From positions 1 to 37,420 of the forward strand of contig DATIKP010000032.1 in NCBI GenBank assembly GCA_035477455.1: 37,420 bases of DNA, in the 5' to 3' direction. Below are positions 3,300-9,692 of the stretch, in pieces. Position 1 is the stretch's first letter, and the number at the start of each line of letters is the position of its first letter. Source of the stretch: Atribacteraceae bacterium. Its GTDB lineage: Bacteria > Atribacterota > Atribacteria > Atribacterales > Atribacteraceae. Both the position numbers and the translations under genes were made by a program. A model generated the notes under the pieces. That model did no database searches. It had not been told where the DNA came from and was given only the letters and a program-made list of their open reading frames with translations.

Positions 3300-4473
3300 C
3301 TGTTATCCCCTCCACCTGGTGCATGATCTCCAGAATCGGTATTCCAGATTCCCGGGCGATGCTTTTGCAGTCATCATACTCGGGGGTCACGTGTCTTCTT
3401 CCCTCACGTTCTGATACTTTGACCCGGACCGGCCCCCAGGGTGTTTCCACCGTAGATACCCGGCGGGGTAGAGAGATTTTTTGAACGCGGTAAGACCGTA
3501 ATCCAAGAGTGCTTGTTTCCCGGAAAATGAGGGCTTGCAGGGCATCAGCGCATATCGGGGTTGCCAGAACCGAAAGCCGAAATCCGGTCCGGAATTTCTT
3601 CATGGAAACTGAGGTCAAAAATACATCGAGGGCGCCCGCCTCGAAAAGCAATTCGCTGAGATAATCGATAATCTGAGGGTTCATGTCGTCGAGGTTGGTC
3701 TCAATCATGATATTCTCACAAGTATCGATTGCCTGGTAATAATGACCGAGGACAGCACGCAGAACATTGGGCTGGGGAAAATTTTTCTGTCCGGCTCCGT
3801 ATCCGATCTGTTCGATACGCAGAGGAGGTAAAAAATCGAAGCGACAAGGTATGGTGGTCAGAAGGGCGGCCCCGGTTGGGGTGGTGAGCTCGCCTTCCAC
3901 TGCACCGGGATATACGGGTATTCCTTTTAGTAATTCAAGAGTCGCCGGAGCGGGAACCGGGAGCAGCCCATGCGCCGTCTCGATCCATCCCCGGCCGGTA
4001 GGGATGGGTGACGCGAAGACTTCGGTCACACCAAGCATAGCTAGCCCCAGGAATCCACCGCACAGATCGATCAGGGTATCTAAGCCGCTTAACTCATGGA
4101 GGTGGACCTCTGTCGGGTTAATCCCGTGTATTTTTCCTTCCGCTCGGGCGATCGCCCACAAAGCGTTCACAGCTTGATTCCGAATAGGCAGGGGTATGGC
4201 GCTTTTATTGACGATATCGATCAAGTCCACTGCCCGACGGTGGGGCGGATAGTGGCTAGGTTGGGAAGGAACGCTATGGGCGTCCCGTTCAGAAACCTCG
4301 ACCAGCGTGGACTGAATAAAACCTTTTTTGACTTTTTTCACCGAAATATCGAAGGGAATACCCAGTTCGGCCATGCGTTCACAGAACGGCTCTTTTTGAA
4401 GACCCAGATCGAACAGGGCTCCCAGGAACATATCCCCGCTGATTCCGGAAAAGCAGTCGAGATATAGGATCAT
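3262..4473 (-). CDS. larC: Nickel-pincer cofactor biosynthesis protein LarC
   Basis: A 403-aa LarC-family protein, recognised from its N-terminal MILYLDCFSGISGDM and internal segments such as TEVHLHELSG, PTGRGWIETAHG, TPTGAALL and ETNLDDMNPQ. LarC is the CTP-dependent nickel insertase that completes the pincer cofactor (nickel-pyridinium-3,5-bisthiocarboxylate mononucleotide) of lactate racemase and related enzymes. The whole protein is in one frame, unlike Lactiplantibacillus plantarum, where larC1 and larC2 are joined by programmed frameshifting. No larA, larB or larE is visible nearby. ATG 4473 has only a weak ribosome site. The last seven codons lie within the convergent terminator stem. 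Confidence 0.92.
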   Translation of the reverse strand: MILYLDCFSGISGDMFLGALFDLGLQKEPFCERMAELGIPFDISVKKVKKGFIQSTLVEVSERDAHSVPSQPSHYPPHRRAVDLIDIVNKSAIPLPIRNQAVNALWAIARAEGKIHGINPTEVHLHELSGLDTLIDLCGGFLGLAMLGVTEVFASPIPTGRGWIETAHGLLPVPAPATLELLKGIPVYPGAVEGELTTPTGAALLTTIPCRFDFLPPLRIEQIGYGAGQKNFPQPNVLRAVLGHYYQAIDTCENIMIETNLDDMNPQIIDYLSELLFEAGALDVFLTSVSMKKFRTGFRLSVLATPICADALQALIFRETSTLGLRSYRVQKISLPRRVSTVETPWGPVRVKVSEREGRRHVTPEYDDCKSIARESGIPILEIMHQVEGITEKTLTGEGNPPP

Positions 4474-5518: not shown

Positions 5519-6745
5519 TCAATACACCGGAAACGGTGTGAAGCTGGGAAAACGGTCATCGGCCCTGCATGAGGTCACGCGCCGGACGATGTGGTTATCC
5601 GGCGAAACAAGGAAAATATCCCAACCGACCTCCTTCCTCCCCGCATAGGTGACCCACTGTCCATCCGGCGAGAATGAGGGATACTCCTTGGGGAAAGAGT
5701 CGAAGGTCAAGCGCTGTATGTTATCGTGAAACAGGTCGAAAACGAATAAATCATAATTTCCTGAGGCTTCGCCGACAAAAATAAGCTGCTTACCGTTCGG
5801 GGAAAAACGGGGATGGGAAACGTTTCCGTCGAAAGGAACCATCCGGCTTCCCATCTCCAGGGTATCGTAAACCTGGAGATTCCACTGTCCATTGCGGAAT
5901 ACGCAATAAGCGATGAGTCTCCCATCGGAGGAGGCGGCCGGTTCGCGCAGCGGGTAGGTGGAACTATAAAGTAGTCGCTGAACCGAGCCGTCGTCATTCA
6001 TCTGGTAAAGATCGTTCCTGCCATTTCGGTTGGACCAAAAAATGATTTCCCGCTGGTCGGTCAAAGAAGAAGGGTAACGGTTACTCTTGTATCCGCCGGC
6101 CAATTCCCGCAAGTCCGTTGTTTCAAGGTTGAAACGGTATATTTCATAGATATAATGCAGGTCGGTCGTAAAAACTACCGAGCGGGTATCCGGACTCATC
6201 CACAGGTCGCTGATGTTCCCATCTTCCAGACTGAAGAGGACGGCTTGTTCTTTCCCGTCAAGTGTGGACAGAATAATGCGGCTTATATCCTGTTCCCGGC
6301 GTGAAAAAAGCAGCTTTGTTTCCCGGTGCAGTCCGAAGAAACGACTCAGATGTGCGATAATCTCATCGATCATCGACGCGTGTTCGTTTCTCTTCCTGAC
6401 CATTCCCAATATTTTTTGGGATCGGAATGAATCATGCCCCTCGAAAAACAGAAGATCATCCCGTTCGTAGCCATAGAATAAAAAATCATAATCAGGATCG
6501 GGATAATTCAGCAAATCGGTTAGGCCTAATTGCTGCCGAAACGGCAGATCTCCGAAGTCGACAAGGTCAAAAGTCGGTACGGTAATGAGAAAATTTTTCA
6601 GGGGTGAAAAAACATTATCTGCTGTTTTATCGATAAATAAAGTTCTTTCCCGAGCCAAGACACCTATGGCCGCAGTAAGAACGATGAAAAAAATCAGAGT
6701 AATAACGGTCCAAGCGGCAACTTTACCGGCTGGGAATATCCTCAT
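5519..6745 (-). CDS. Membrane-anchored TolB-like beta-propeller protein
   Basis: A 408-aa protein with a single N-terminal membrane segment (about residues 8-32, VAAWTVITLIFFIVLTAAIG) followed by a spacer. A C-terminal propeller made of PD40/TolB-type blades follows, for example RFSPNGKQLIFVG, SFSPDGQWVTYAG, PSSLTDQREIIFWSNRNG and AASSDGRLIAYCVF. Such propellers are periplasmic or extracellular interaction platforms; no catalytic motif is visible. The start at ATG 6745 is supported by GGGGGGGA six bases upstream. It is the first gene of a two-gene minus-strand unit with the thioredoxin-like protein, so the pair may work together in envelope redox or protein maturation (inference). Confidence 0.75.
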   Translation of the reverse strand: MRIFPAGKVAAWTVITLIFFIVLTAAIGVLARERTLFIDKTADNVFSPLKNFLITVPTFDLVDFGDLPFRQQLGLTDLLNYPDPDYDFLFYGYERDDLLFFEGHDSFRSQKILGMVRKRNEHASMIDEIIAHLSRFFGLHRETKLLFSRREQDISRIILSTLDGKEQAVLFSLEDGNISDLWMSPDTRSVVFTTDLHYIYEIYRFNLETTDLRELAGGYKSNRYPSSLTDQREIIFWSNRNGRNDLYQMNDDGSVQRLLYSSTYPLREPAASSDGRLIAYCVFRNGQWNLQVYDTLEMGSRMVPFDGNVSHPRFSPNGKQLIFVGEASGNYDLFVFDLFHDNIQRLTFDSFPKEYPSFSPDGQWVTYAGRKEVGWDIFLVSPDNHIVRRVTSCRADDRFPSFTPFPVY

Positions 6746-6904
6746 ACAAGTCCCCCCCCGAACGATTGAAGTGAATGTTCTTTGCGATAACATGTAAATG
6801 ATTGCTAAGGCATAAATAAGATTGCCAACTCGAAGGACTACCGAGAAGCGGTATAAGTCTAATCCTCTTTCCTCATCGCTCTATATTTCCAGGAAAAGCT
6901 CCGA

Positions 6905-6910
6905 TATAAT
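6905..6910 (+). promoter_or_regulatory. Candidate -10 element for the kinase-fusion/hpt/hisC operon
   Basis: A perfect TATAAT lies 18 bp before the TTG start at 6929. The -35 region at the expected spacing (about 6881-6887) is poor. If used, the leader would be only about 12 nt, just including the GGGG ribosome-site-like run at 6921-6924. Confidence 0.35.
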
Positions 6911-6928
6911 AAGAAAAAGTGGGGTGCT

Positions 6929-7855
6929 TTGTCGAAGGTGAAAAAGATAGTCGTGGTAACTATTTCCCGTGAAACAGAGAGCCTGGGAGATGAAATAGCC
7001 GATTACATCGCCCAAAAAATGGACTTTCAACTCATAGGCCGGGAGCGCGTAGACGAGTTGGTCCGGGAAAGAGGAAAAGGCTTCCCCGAAACGATCGACG
7101 ATCAAAACAGTATAACCGAATGGCTTAGGGAAGTACGTGAGCTGATCATTGAATTATCCGCTACTCGTCCGGTACTCTTCCTGGGAAGGGGGGGACAAAA
7201 GATTTTTGACAACATGCCGGACACCTTTCATGCCCTGGTCGTGTCCTCTCCGGAGATCCGGATCCGCCGGATTATGGAAAAGTATAACCAGGATTCAGTC
7301 ACCGCGTCGCGGATCCTGGCGGAACAAGATCAGCAGCGGGAACGCTTTCACTCCCGGTTTCTTGGGGTGGACTGGCGCAATCCCTGCCTTTATCATATCG
7401 TCTTAAACACGGCTTGGTATGACCTCCCGGAAGCCGGAGAATTATTTCTGAAAGCTATTCAGGGCTCCAGAGAAGCGCCGGACACCGGAATGGGGCAGGA
7501 GCTTCGTCCCCGGAGTCAGGACCTGGTCAGGAAAAAGATCCTGTTTTCACATCCCTCCGAAGGCGAATTTGCCCGGATACTGAACTTTTACGGTATTAGG
7601 TGGCTTTATGAGCCCCGGACCTTTCCTTTAGAATGGGACGGAGAGGGAAATGTCGTCGAAGCCTTCTCGCCTGATTTCTATCTTCCCGATTTTGATCTCT
7701 TCATTGAATTGACGACGCAAAGGCAAAAGCTAGTCTGGAAAAAAAACCGAAAAGTCAGGAGACTGAAAGAATTGTACCCCGAGGTCAAGGTGAAAGTGAT
7801 TTATTCCAGAGACTACAGCCATTTACTGAGTAAATTCGGTGTCGAGGAACATTGA
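6929..7855 (+). CDS. Cytidylate-kinase-like domain fused to PD-(D/E)XK-like domain
   Basis: A 308-aa two-part protein. Residues about 6-180 resemble the cytidylate-kinase-like P-loop family: VVVTISRETESLGDEIADYIA at the start, then FLGRGGQKIF near 84-93 and RIRRIMEKYNQ near 111-121. The usual GSGG turn of the nucleotide loop is altered to ESLG. Residues about 208-300 form a separate alpha/beta domain with a restriction-endonuclease-fold layout: helix Glu213, then SPDFYLPDFDLFIEL (P248-D249 ... E260). The usual ExK lysine is Thr262, and KKNRKVRRLKELYP follows. The next gene, hpt, starts immediately after the stop. TTG 6929 is chosen (GGGG at 6921); GTG 6938 is an alternative. Substrate and nuclease activity are unproven. 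Confidence 0.7.
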   Translation: MSKVKKIVVVTISRETESLGDEIADYIAQKMDFQLIGRERVDELVRERGKGFPETIDDQNSITEWLREVRELIIELSATRPVLFLGRGGQKIFDNMPDTFHALVVSSPEIRIRRIMEKYNQDSVTASRILAEQDQQRERFHSRFLGVDWRNPCLYHIVLNTAWYDLPEAGELFLKAIQGSREAPDTGMGQELRPRSQDLVRKKILFSHPSEGEFARILNFYGIRWLYEPRTFPLEWDGEGNVVEAFSPDFYLPDFDLFIELTTQRQKLVWKKNRKVRRLKELYPEVKVKVIYSRDYSHLLSKFGVEEH

Positions 7856-7856
7856 T

Positions 7857-8426
7857 GTGGATACCCGCCTGGGACAGCGTGTCTTCACCCGTGGGGAAAT
7901 TGAAACACGAGTCCGGGAAATTGCCATCGCGATCGCTGAGGATTACCGAGACCGCCGGCCGATCCTGATCGGGATTTTACGCGGCGCAGTGTATTTTACT
8001 GTCGACATTACCCGGCAGCTCGCGATTCCATTCGATCTCGATTTCATGTCTTTATCTAATTTTAAGATGGGACTTCAGAAAGCGGAAATCGAAAAAGATC
8101 TCAATGAGCCGGTATACAATCGGCACGTTATAATCGTCGAAGATATCGTGGATACAGGGTTGACATTGAATTTTTTGATTAAGGTGATTGAAAGCCGCCG
8201 TCCAGCCAGTATCAAGACCTGCGCCTTTCTCGATTGCCGGGAGAGGAGAATCGCTGATGTTCCGATAGATTATGCCTGTTTCCAAATTCCGGATGTTTTC
8301 GTGGTGGGATACGGATTGGATTTTCGCGGAAACTTCCGGAATCTGTACGATGTATTTACTCTCCATGATCCCAGTGGGCGGAACACACAAATTCTTAAAC
8401 AAACAGGAAAAAGGAATCAGCCATGA
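7857..8426 (+). CDS. hpt: Hypoxanthine phosphoribosyltransferase
   Basis: A 189-aa purine-salvage enzyme converting hypoxanthine or guanine plus PRPP to IMP or GMP in the cytosol. The PRPP-binding signature VIIVEDIVDTGLT is at residues 91-103, the pyrophosphate loop GILRGAVYF near residue 40, and VGYGLDFRGNFRN near the C-terminus, all intact. Length is normal (about 180-190 aa). GTG 7857 follows GAGGA with 8-nt spacing; an in-frame GTG at 7839, inside the preceding gene, is also open. It overlaps hisC by 4 bp (ATGA), so the kinase fusion, hpt and hisC form one operon. Confidence 0.93.
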   Translation: MDTRLGQRVFTRGEIETRVREIAIAIAEDYRDRRPILIGILRGAVYFTVDITRQLAIPFDLDFMSLSNFKMGLQKAEIEKDLNEPVYNRHVIIVEDIVDTGLTLNFLIKVIESRRPASIKTCAFLDCRERRIADVPIDYACFQIPDVFVVGYGLDFRGNFRNLYDVFTLHDPSGRNTQILKQTGKRNQP

Positions 8427-9508
8427 GATATGCCAGAGAAGCGATTCAGAAAATGAGTGCCTATGTTCCCGGGGAACAACCCGATACTCGGGAATACCTC
8501 AAGCTGAACACCAACGAAAATCCCTTTCCTCCTTCCTTGCGGGTTTGCGAGGCTCTCCGGGGAAGCCTCCTTTCAGAGGCCATCGTCCGTTATCCACCGC
8601 CTCTGTGCGATGCCCTCAGGAATACGGTGTCTCAGGTTTATAGTGTGCCTCCGGAATGGATTGCCGTAGGAAACGGCTCCGATGAACTACTCAATTTGGT
8701 TTTCCGAGTTATTCTCAACCCGGGTGACAAGGTGGCTTATCCGGTTCCGACCTATTCACTCTACCGGACACTGGCTCAGATTCAGGAGGCTGAGCCGGTT
8801 GAAATTCCTTTTCCGGAAGACTTTACATTGCCGGAACGCTTTCTGAACACTTCCTCATATCTCAAGGTCGTGTGTAATCCGAACTCCCCAACCGGAACAG
8901 TCGTTTCTCAGGACATCCTGGTCCGACTTTTGGAATCCGCCGATTGTCCGGTATTGATTGACGAGGCGTATGCCGATTTCGCTCCGTACAACGCCTTGCC
9001 TCTTCTCTTCCGTTATCCACATCTACTGGTGGCCAGAACATTGTCCAAATCTTTCTCCTTTGCGGGTCTACGGGTTGGTCTCCTATTCGCGCAACCGGAG
9101 TTGCTTTCGGGTATACTGAAAATTAAGGATTCTTACAACGTTAACAATCTGTCGCAAATCGCCGCAATCGCTGCCCTCGGGGATCTGGATGCGATGCAGT
9201 GCAATGTTCAGGCGATCCGGGCGACCCGTGACCGTTTCAGCAGGGCTATGGAAGAACGGGGGTTTTATGTGTACCCCTCCCAGGCCAACTTCGTTTTGGT
9301 GAGAAAAGAAGGGAGGAGCCTGGCCTCACTCTATGAGTCACTGAAAAAGGAAAAAATCATGGTACGCTATTTTCCAAGTCTACCGGATTGCTTACGGATC
9401 AGTATCGGGCTCGATCGGGACATGGACCGGCTGATTGATACAATCGATACCCTCCTTGATCAGGATGGACGAAAAAACGTACAGGCTTTTCATCTGGGAT
9501 CTGGATAA
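8423..9508 (+). CDS. hisC: Histidinol-phosphate aminotransferase
   Basis: A 361-aa fold-type I PLP aminotransferase of the HisC subfamily. Visible motifs are KLNTNENPFPPS at the N-terminus, GNGSDELL, the segment VCNPNSPTG, the IDEAYADF metal/PLP segment, and SKSFSFAGLRVG with the PLP lysine at K209. It catalyses the transamination between imidazole-acetol phosphate and histidinol phosphate in histidine biosynthesis; paralogues can also act on aromatic amino acids. No other his gene is nearby, so substrate range is open. The start overlaps the hpt stop (ATGA), indicating coupled translation. Confidence 0.92.
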   Translation: MRYAREAIQKMSAYVPGEQPDTREYLKLNTNENPFPPSLRVCEALRGSLLSEAIVRYPPPLCDALRNTVSQVYSVPPEWIAVGNGSDELLNLVFRVILNPGDKVAYPVPTYSLYRTLAQIQEAEPVEIPFPEDFTLPERFLNTSSYLKVVCNPNSPTGTVVSQDILVRLLESADCPVLIDEAYADFAPYNALPLLFRYPHLLVARTLSKSFSFAGLRVGLLFAQPELLSGILKIKDSYNVNNLSQIAAIAALGDLDAMQCNVQAIRATRDRFSRAMEERGFYVYPSQANFVLVRKEGRSLASLYESLKKEKIMVRYFPSLPDCLRISIGLDRDMDRLIDTIDTLLDQDGRKNVQAFHLGSG

Positions 9509-9692
9509 TATCCTGGTTGCCAGTTCTGATCTGCTTTGGGGTGCTTTTGGATTCATTGTCAAAAAGCATAGCAGCCAGGCCATGACCCCCGACAAAAACC
9601 GTCGGCCTCTTCGAACCCCGGAAGGAACGGCAATTGAGTGGATCGGCGGATTGCATAACCGGGATGACGCTGCCGGCATTCCAAATGGTTGA
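9465..9692 (+). pseudogene. N-terminal remnant of a HAD-family phosphatase
   Basis: A 75-codon frame starting inside the hisC 3' end encodes MDEKTYRLFIWDLDNILVAS, a recognisable HAD motif I segment (normally DxDGTLxxS) followed by LLWGAFGFIVKKHS and EGTAIEWI, as in phosphoglycolate-phosphatase-like proteins. The frame stops after 75 residues, where a complete enzyme would need over 200. The Gly-Thr after the second Asp is Asn-Ile. No continuation in other frames is convincing. It is most likely a decayed gene, perhaps still translated through coupling to hisC. Confidence 0.6.

Follow-up and report, generated by a model that had tools for sequence, protein, structure and literature searches.

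A PD-(D/E)XK nuclease-type domain linked to a divergent HPRT paralogue in three bacterial phyla

What could be the role of a protein that joins a kinase-like domain to a nuclease-like one and whose gene runs into that of a purine-salvage-type enzyme? The question is raised by the window analyzed here, the whole 37,420-nucleotide stretch of contig DATIKP010000032.1 from an Atribacteraceae bacterium. An open reading frame at 6929 to 7855 (plus strand, TTG start, TGA stop) encodes a protein of 308 aa, and its 3' end overlaps by 17 nt an hpt-type gene on the same strand (7839 to 8426). A preliminary description, made from the letters alone, had taken the N terminus for a cytidylate-kinase-like domain with an altered nucleotide loop and the C terminus for a restriction-endonuclease fold with E...PD...ExT order, in which Thr replaces the usual lysine, and it had proposed modeling the two parts separately for fold searches. 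AF2 models of the two parts, built from shallow alignments of 16 to 17 rows, gave an NMP-kinase fold (pLDDT of 86.4) and a PD-(D/E)XK fold (pLDDT of 84.7), confirming both assignments. The genome that carries the window is an Atribacterota genome of Caldatribacteriia type, with Candidatus Atribacteria and Caldatribacterium as the sources of the closest named loci. The window gave no match when scanned for Rfam families and tRNAs, and promoter and terminator scans did not rise above shuffled sequences.

The N-terminal domain is a member of the Cytidylate_kin2 family by sequence and by fold. Residues 9 to 161 (6953 to 7411, plus strand) match PF13189 with an E value of 1.8e-25 (90.6 bits against a Pfam cut-off of 28), and a Foldseek search with the model returned 3hdt (E 4.9e-10) and 3fdi (E 8.8e-10), with adenylate and CMP kinases next. 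At residues 17 to 20 (6977 to 6988, plus strand), where alignments give GSGG in relatives, the window protein has ESLG (RETESLG against REFGSGG in 3fdi and REYGSGG in 3hdt), and the glycine-rich phosphate-binding P-loop expected of an active NMP kinase is absent. Copies of this type carry E-S-[LYG]-G together with the fusion to the second domain, and Glu17, which replaces the first P-loop glycine, does not vary among the 17 Atribacterota copies. A canonical CMP kinase with the P-loop DGPAGSGKST is encoded elsewhere in the same genome. Judged by its residues, the kinase-like domain looks disabled, a dead kinase that has lost its P-loop. The two-domain architecture is common to 16 Atribacterota loci, and in searches of three phyla the fusion was seen solely in Caldatribacteriia, in agreement with the earlier suspicion that it may be uncommon.

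The C-terminal domain, here referred to as PDX (residues ~204 to 308, ~105 aa; 7538 to 7852, plus strand), has a PD-(D/E)XK core with the order H-E-E-E-E-H-E-H. Its best relative in both sequence and fold is T7-type endonuclease I (PF05367; 3cae, 2pfj, and 1m0d), with which it has in common the core strands, the E...PD...E order, and a full-domain match. Against viral models, Foldseek found phage endonuclease I folds (E 3.7e-8, TM of 0.74 over the query), and a sequence profile of PDX reached 3cae with an E value of 1.6e-4. The PF05367 family cut-off was not reached (15.0 bits against 29.1), with weak matches in 13 of 17 members (best E 0.0007). Foldseek matches in the PDB were weak, none below 1e-3, yet several were to proteins of the expected type (the R2 retrotransposon protein, PvuRts1I, I-Bth0305I, and Vsr); Toxoplasma mitoribosome chains also appeared. 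No Pfam or NCBIfam model scored above its cut-off on stand-alone PDX proteins, and the family is therefore uncatalogued in these libraries. PDX domains of other phyla are 44 to 67% identical to the window copy, which argues that the likeness is not due to chance.

We examined the active site across 144 distinct PDX sequences from Atribacterota, Actinomycetota, and Chloroflexota. Invariant in all 144 are the motif I acid E211 (7559 to 7561), the motif II acid D249 of the P248-D249 pair (7673 to 7675), and both E260 and T262 of motif III (E260-L-T262, 7706 to 7714), where the threonine sits at the position of the usual catalytic lysine of the PD-(D/E)XK superfamily. Equally invariant are both lysines of K272-N-R-K275 (7742 to 7753; all on the plus strand). 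They lie in the motif IV helix that follows motif III, which spans positions 69 to 85 of the AF2 model and offers a candidate relocated lysine. T7-type endonuclease I, in contrast, has ExK. DUF1626 and related families are a described case in which threonine replaces the motif III lysine and a lysine has shifted to the motif IV helix (PMC1913061); these migrated-lysine families have a basic patch in that helix, as PDX does, but not its linkage to HPRT. Considering that six residues are 100% conserved and that this precedent exists, we read the PDX site as intact, with a putatively relocated lysine, and as probably catalytic rather than ruined.

Distant PDX relatives within DnaE proteins retain ExK. 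Such related PD-(D/E)XK domains lie at 4001 to 4246 of locus L188, 7001 to 7267 of L127, and 5001 to 5267 of L128; their hosts are a 1655-aa protein annotated as DnaE on a Miltoncostaea oceani plasmid (L188, NZ_CP064357.1) and open reading frames of 2180 aa (L127) and 1705 aa (L128), and the domains are probably inteins with a PD-(D/E)XK homing nuclease. A PDX-related PD-(D/E)XK part is also carried by large Chloroflexota proteins of ~950 aa (L129, L130, and similar ones), which match PDX positions 12 to 64 only and have E-H in place of E-T.

Genome-wide searches of draft genomes from the three phyla found PDX in 24 of 25 Caldatribacteriia genomes, in 129 of 297 sampled Actinomycetota genomes, and in about 93 of 301 Chloroflexota genomes (103 at an E value of 1e-3, minus 10 weak matches to other proteins), while the other 25 Atribacterota genomes had no strong match. 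Nearly every carrier genome has a single copy. The preliminary description had mentioned similar domains beside hpt genes elsewhere, and this proved correct. In loci partly taken from the best-scoring matches, the PDX gene lies immediately 5' of an HPRT gene in all 24 Atribacterota genomes; it is immediately upstream of hpt in 37 of 71 sampled Actinomycetota and no more than 3.5 kb away, in the same orientation, in a further 24 (61 in total), and among 52 sampled Chloroflexota it is fused to HPRT in 18 and immediately upstream in 23 (41 in total). PDX has no HPRT neighbor in 21 of the 144 sampled genomes, in some of them owing to contig ends, and most genomes with PDX away from hpt have a second HPRT elsewhere.

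Outside Caldatribacteriia, PDX occurs as a stand-alone protein, behind a GAF domain, or as a fusion with HPRT, and the Dehalococcoidia architecture is GAF-PDX-HPRT. One PDX-HPRT protein, WP_012643103 of Thermomicrobium roseum, is annotated merely as hpt, and no description of an HPRT-nuclease fusion was found in the open-licence literature. Apart from the GAF and kinase domains, seemingly long sequences N-terminal to PDX in high-GC genomes were discarded as artifacts of stop-to-stop reading; antisense genes produced by greedy gene calling in high-GC loci were likewise left out of the neighborhood counts. Among the neighbors are genes of nucleotide metabolism: a Dehalococcoidia locus (L020) has the order nrdR-nrdJ-GAF-PDX-HPRT, and in an Atribacterota locus (L001) a ribonucleotide reductase gene lies downstream of the kinase-PDX/HPRT pair. 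In L142, PDX and hpt are part of a housekeeping operon (trmD-rplS-lepB-rnhB-PDX-hpt-rimP-nusA), and the Coriobacteriia-type loci L072 and L017 have downstream Pribosyltran-family genes, which we read as apt.

The hpt-type gene of the window (7839 to 8426, plus strand, GTG start) had been described as a purine-salvage enzyme that follows directly. Its product is indeed HPRT-like and overlapping, with 160.8 bits against the TIGR01203 cut-off of 150, but it is a second, divergent phosphoribosyltransferase paralogue, which we call HPRT2; the canonical HPRT of the same genome is encoded elsewhere (G000:C37:3846-4343, 211 bits), and we rejected the window gene as the housekeeping copy on this ground. 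A second HPRT goes with PDX more generally. In Atribacterota, 21 of 24 PDX-positive genomes have two HPRT copies over the cut-off, whereas PDX-negative genomes have at most one. At least two HPRTs were found in 33 of 39 PDX-positive Actinomycetota and 39 of 49 PDX-positive Chloroflexota genomes, against just 4 of 40 PDX-negative genomes of these phyla (72/88 versus 4/40; Fisher p of 5e-15, with kinship ignored). A few PDX-positive genomes appear to lack a second HPRT, and in some the PDX-linked HPRT is the sole one. In a quick tree, a branch with an SH-aLRT of 93 had all 38 unlinked HPRTs on the same side, but trees grouping linked and unlinked HPRTs by phylum had a higher score and were not rejected (AU p of 0.60 and 0.78), so a single ancient clade of PDX-linked HPRTs is not secure. 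The data are compatible with a single old paralogue or with duplications that recurred next to PDX.

Canonical HPRT (TIGR01203) and HPRT2, which scores just above the model cut-off, have the overall fold and the PRPP motif in common; the latter is intact in HPRT2 (EDIVDTG, 8139 to 8159, plus strand) and fits EDxxD[ST]G. They differ in that canonical HPRT has a loop II Ser-Tyr pair and a purine-O6 lysine, both of which the linked Atribacterota copies have lost. Loop II of HPRT2 reads Asn-Phe (8058 to 8063, plus strand), and Cys133 (8235 to 8237, plus strand) stands for the purine-O6-binding lysine, leaving HPRT2 without a residue expected of a functional 6-oxopurine HPRT; in human HGPRT, Lys165 contacts purine O6 and Asp137 is near N7 (PMC2228302). 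All 125 unlinked HPRTs have Ser-Tyr and the catalytic Asp, and 122 have the lysine. Among 20 linked Atribacterota copies, all have the cysteine, the loop II Ser persists in 2 and the Tyr in 5, and the pair is gone in nearly all. The 19 PDX-HPRT fusions have all lost the loop II Ser, and in 9 of them Asn or Ser replaces the catalytic Asp. The Glu and neighboring first Asp of the PRPP motif are retained in 20 of 20 linked Atribacterota HPRTs and 18 of 19 fusions. In all 118 comparisons with the window, PDX was more conserved than its own HPRT. Together with the residue losses, these comparisons indicate that the phosphoribosyltransferase (PRT) erodes and the nuclease-type site does not. Every catalytic residue checked is retained in many linked HPRTs of Actinomycetota and in many unfused ones of Chloroflexota, and this, with the genomes in which the linked copy is the sole HPRT, indicates that it must still act as an enzyme there. 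The claim that the locus is tied to purine salvage holds for the recurring association with hpt but needs qualifying because, in this lineage, the purine-O6 lysine of the partner is lost and a canonical HPRT is encoded elsewhere.

Several individual PRTs depart further from the canonical sequence. L104, L125, and L138, as well as the Thermomicrobium-type fusions L097, L101, L103, L179, and L187, have Asn for the catalytic Asp (EDIVNTG or EDIINTG), and such annotated hpt genes may accordingly not encode salvage enzymes. The PRT domains of L117 and L135 are extremely decayed (VVAAVIDTG and LVADVVSTG), yet they adjoin or are fused to PDX.

We propose that PDX and HPRT form a conserved module in which a PRT-derived sensor of purine or PRPP controls PDX, the nuclease-type effector, a reading to which we give a probability of about 0.38. 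PDX would most likely be a metal-dependent nuclease that acts on DNA or RNA, its catalytic lysine having shifted out of motif III into the next helix, and the partner HPRT of this lineage has most likely lost its salvage function. Through its intact PRPP motif, the partner could bind PRPP, a purine nucleotide, or (p)ppGpp, the last of which HPRT is established to bind through this motif (PMC6783271); the ligand-bound form would then switch PDX on or off. The analysis establishes the domain identities and fold class, the residue conservation and replacements, the linkage, and the paralogy; catalysis by PDX, the ligand of HPRT2, and the direction of control are points that we infer. The PRT would ancestrally have been an enzyme that turned sensor in some lineages, including that of the window, and the dead kinase domain might be a further nucleotide sensor or a docking part, just as the GAF domain of Dehalococcoidia might provide additional input. 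The sensor-like nature of these two N-terminal partners favors a sensor, and the nucleotide-sensing role considered in the preliminary description gains support. The nucleotide genes among the neighbors (nrdR-nrdJ, ribonucleotide reductase) also speak for this reading. It is weakened by the linked HPRTs that retain catalytic residues or are the sole HPRT of their genome, by the genomes in which PDX has no HPRT neighbor, and by the few that seem to lack a second HPRT.

It is possible, though we consider it unlikely, that PDX binds nucleic acid without cutting it, as a RAP domain does, and that PDX and HPRT2 form a PurR- or PyrR-like regulator in which the PRT senses the purine state. PRT-derived regulators are an established theme, and both the nucleotide genes nearby and the missing motif III lysine would suit a regulator of this kind, as would the Toxoplasma mitoribosome matches, which may be RAP-type domains. 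The RAP domain (PF08373) has a restriction-endonuclease-like fold, as PDX has, and binds RNA, but it keeps the acidic residues only in part (PMC8190603), whereas PDX keeps all of them. Loss of some of the three metal-binding acids would be expected of a pure binder, but all three are invariant in the 144 PDX sequences.

A coupling of turnover to salvage also seems improbable: PDX would cut RNA or DNA, and an active linked PRT with altered base specificity would recapture the bases or be channeled by PDX. The catalytically complete linked HPRTs of many Actinomycetota and Chloroflexota, at times the only HPRT of the genome, are consistent with such an arrangement, as are the putative downstream apt genes in L072 and L017. 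It also has a precedent in the Zobellia fusion of HGPRT to adenylate kinase, a nucleotide kinase, in which both activities are present (PMC7326950). There, HPRT is genetically joined to an NMP-kinase fold, as in the window, but both parts are active and there is no nuclease domain, whereas the kinase domain of the window has no P-loop and shares its chain with PDX. However, phosphodiester cleavage yields no free bases, and the losses described above include the purine-O6 lysine in every Atribacterota copy and the catalytic Asp in half of the fusions.

The linkage to a hypoxanthine enzyme, together with the PD-(D/E)XK repair nuclease Vsr among the fold matches, might suggest that PDX is an Endonuclease V-like hypoxanthine or inosine repair enzyme coupled to hypoxanthine salvage. 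We regard this as very unlikely and rejected PDX as a replacement for Endonuclease V (PF04493), which is present in 20 of 25 Caldatribacteriia genomes, that of the window included, and so occurs alongside PDX instead of being replaced by it. A phage-defense or toxin module, the defense-like option of the preliminary description, has in its favor a nuclease fold beside nucleotide-binding domains and very weak PADLOC matches to HEAT_CxxC_PDDEXK (best E value of 2.5e-5 with the stand-alone protein of L017 and of 0.0023 with that of the window) but was rejected as highly improbable, given that PDX is single-copy, near-universal in Caldatribacteriia, highly conserved across phyla, and set in housekeeping operons such as that of L142, with no relative in a scan of viral contigs.

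The preferred reading, a PDX effector governed by a PRT-derived sensor, extends tentatively to a novel class of nucleic-acid switches that respond to purines, in which a relocated-lysine PD-(D/E)XK domain would be set by a phosphoribosyltransferase turned sensor, with lineage-specific extra sensors, across three phyla. If this were true, purine or alarmone status would be tied directly to nucleic-acid cleavage. In nearly all sampled Caldatribacteriia, as in many Actinomycetota and Chloroflexota, an extremely conserved domain absent from the family libraries adjoins a purine enzyme, and caution is warranted for many hpt-annotated genes of these phyla, which may not encode salvage enzymes.

Single loci add some minor observations. 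L113 has two tandem copies at 5938 to 7890 that begin identically at the N terminus, and the first of them matches PDX only in part. A PDX protein of L131 (5896 to 6735) has a C-terminal extension of ~145 aa with no Pfam match, and its genome has a single HPRT. In L140, a 147-aa protein of another Atribacterota family (3574 to 4014) gives a weak PDX-like match (E 3.7e-6) with an ExC motif and has no adjoining HPRT. Finally, the window contains at 9480 to 9671 a remnant of a HAD-type phosphatase gene, the N-terminal 64 residues of a ~215-aa product; in relatives (L013), the full-length gene follows that of an aminotransferase.
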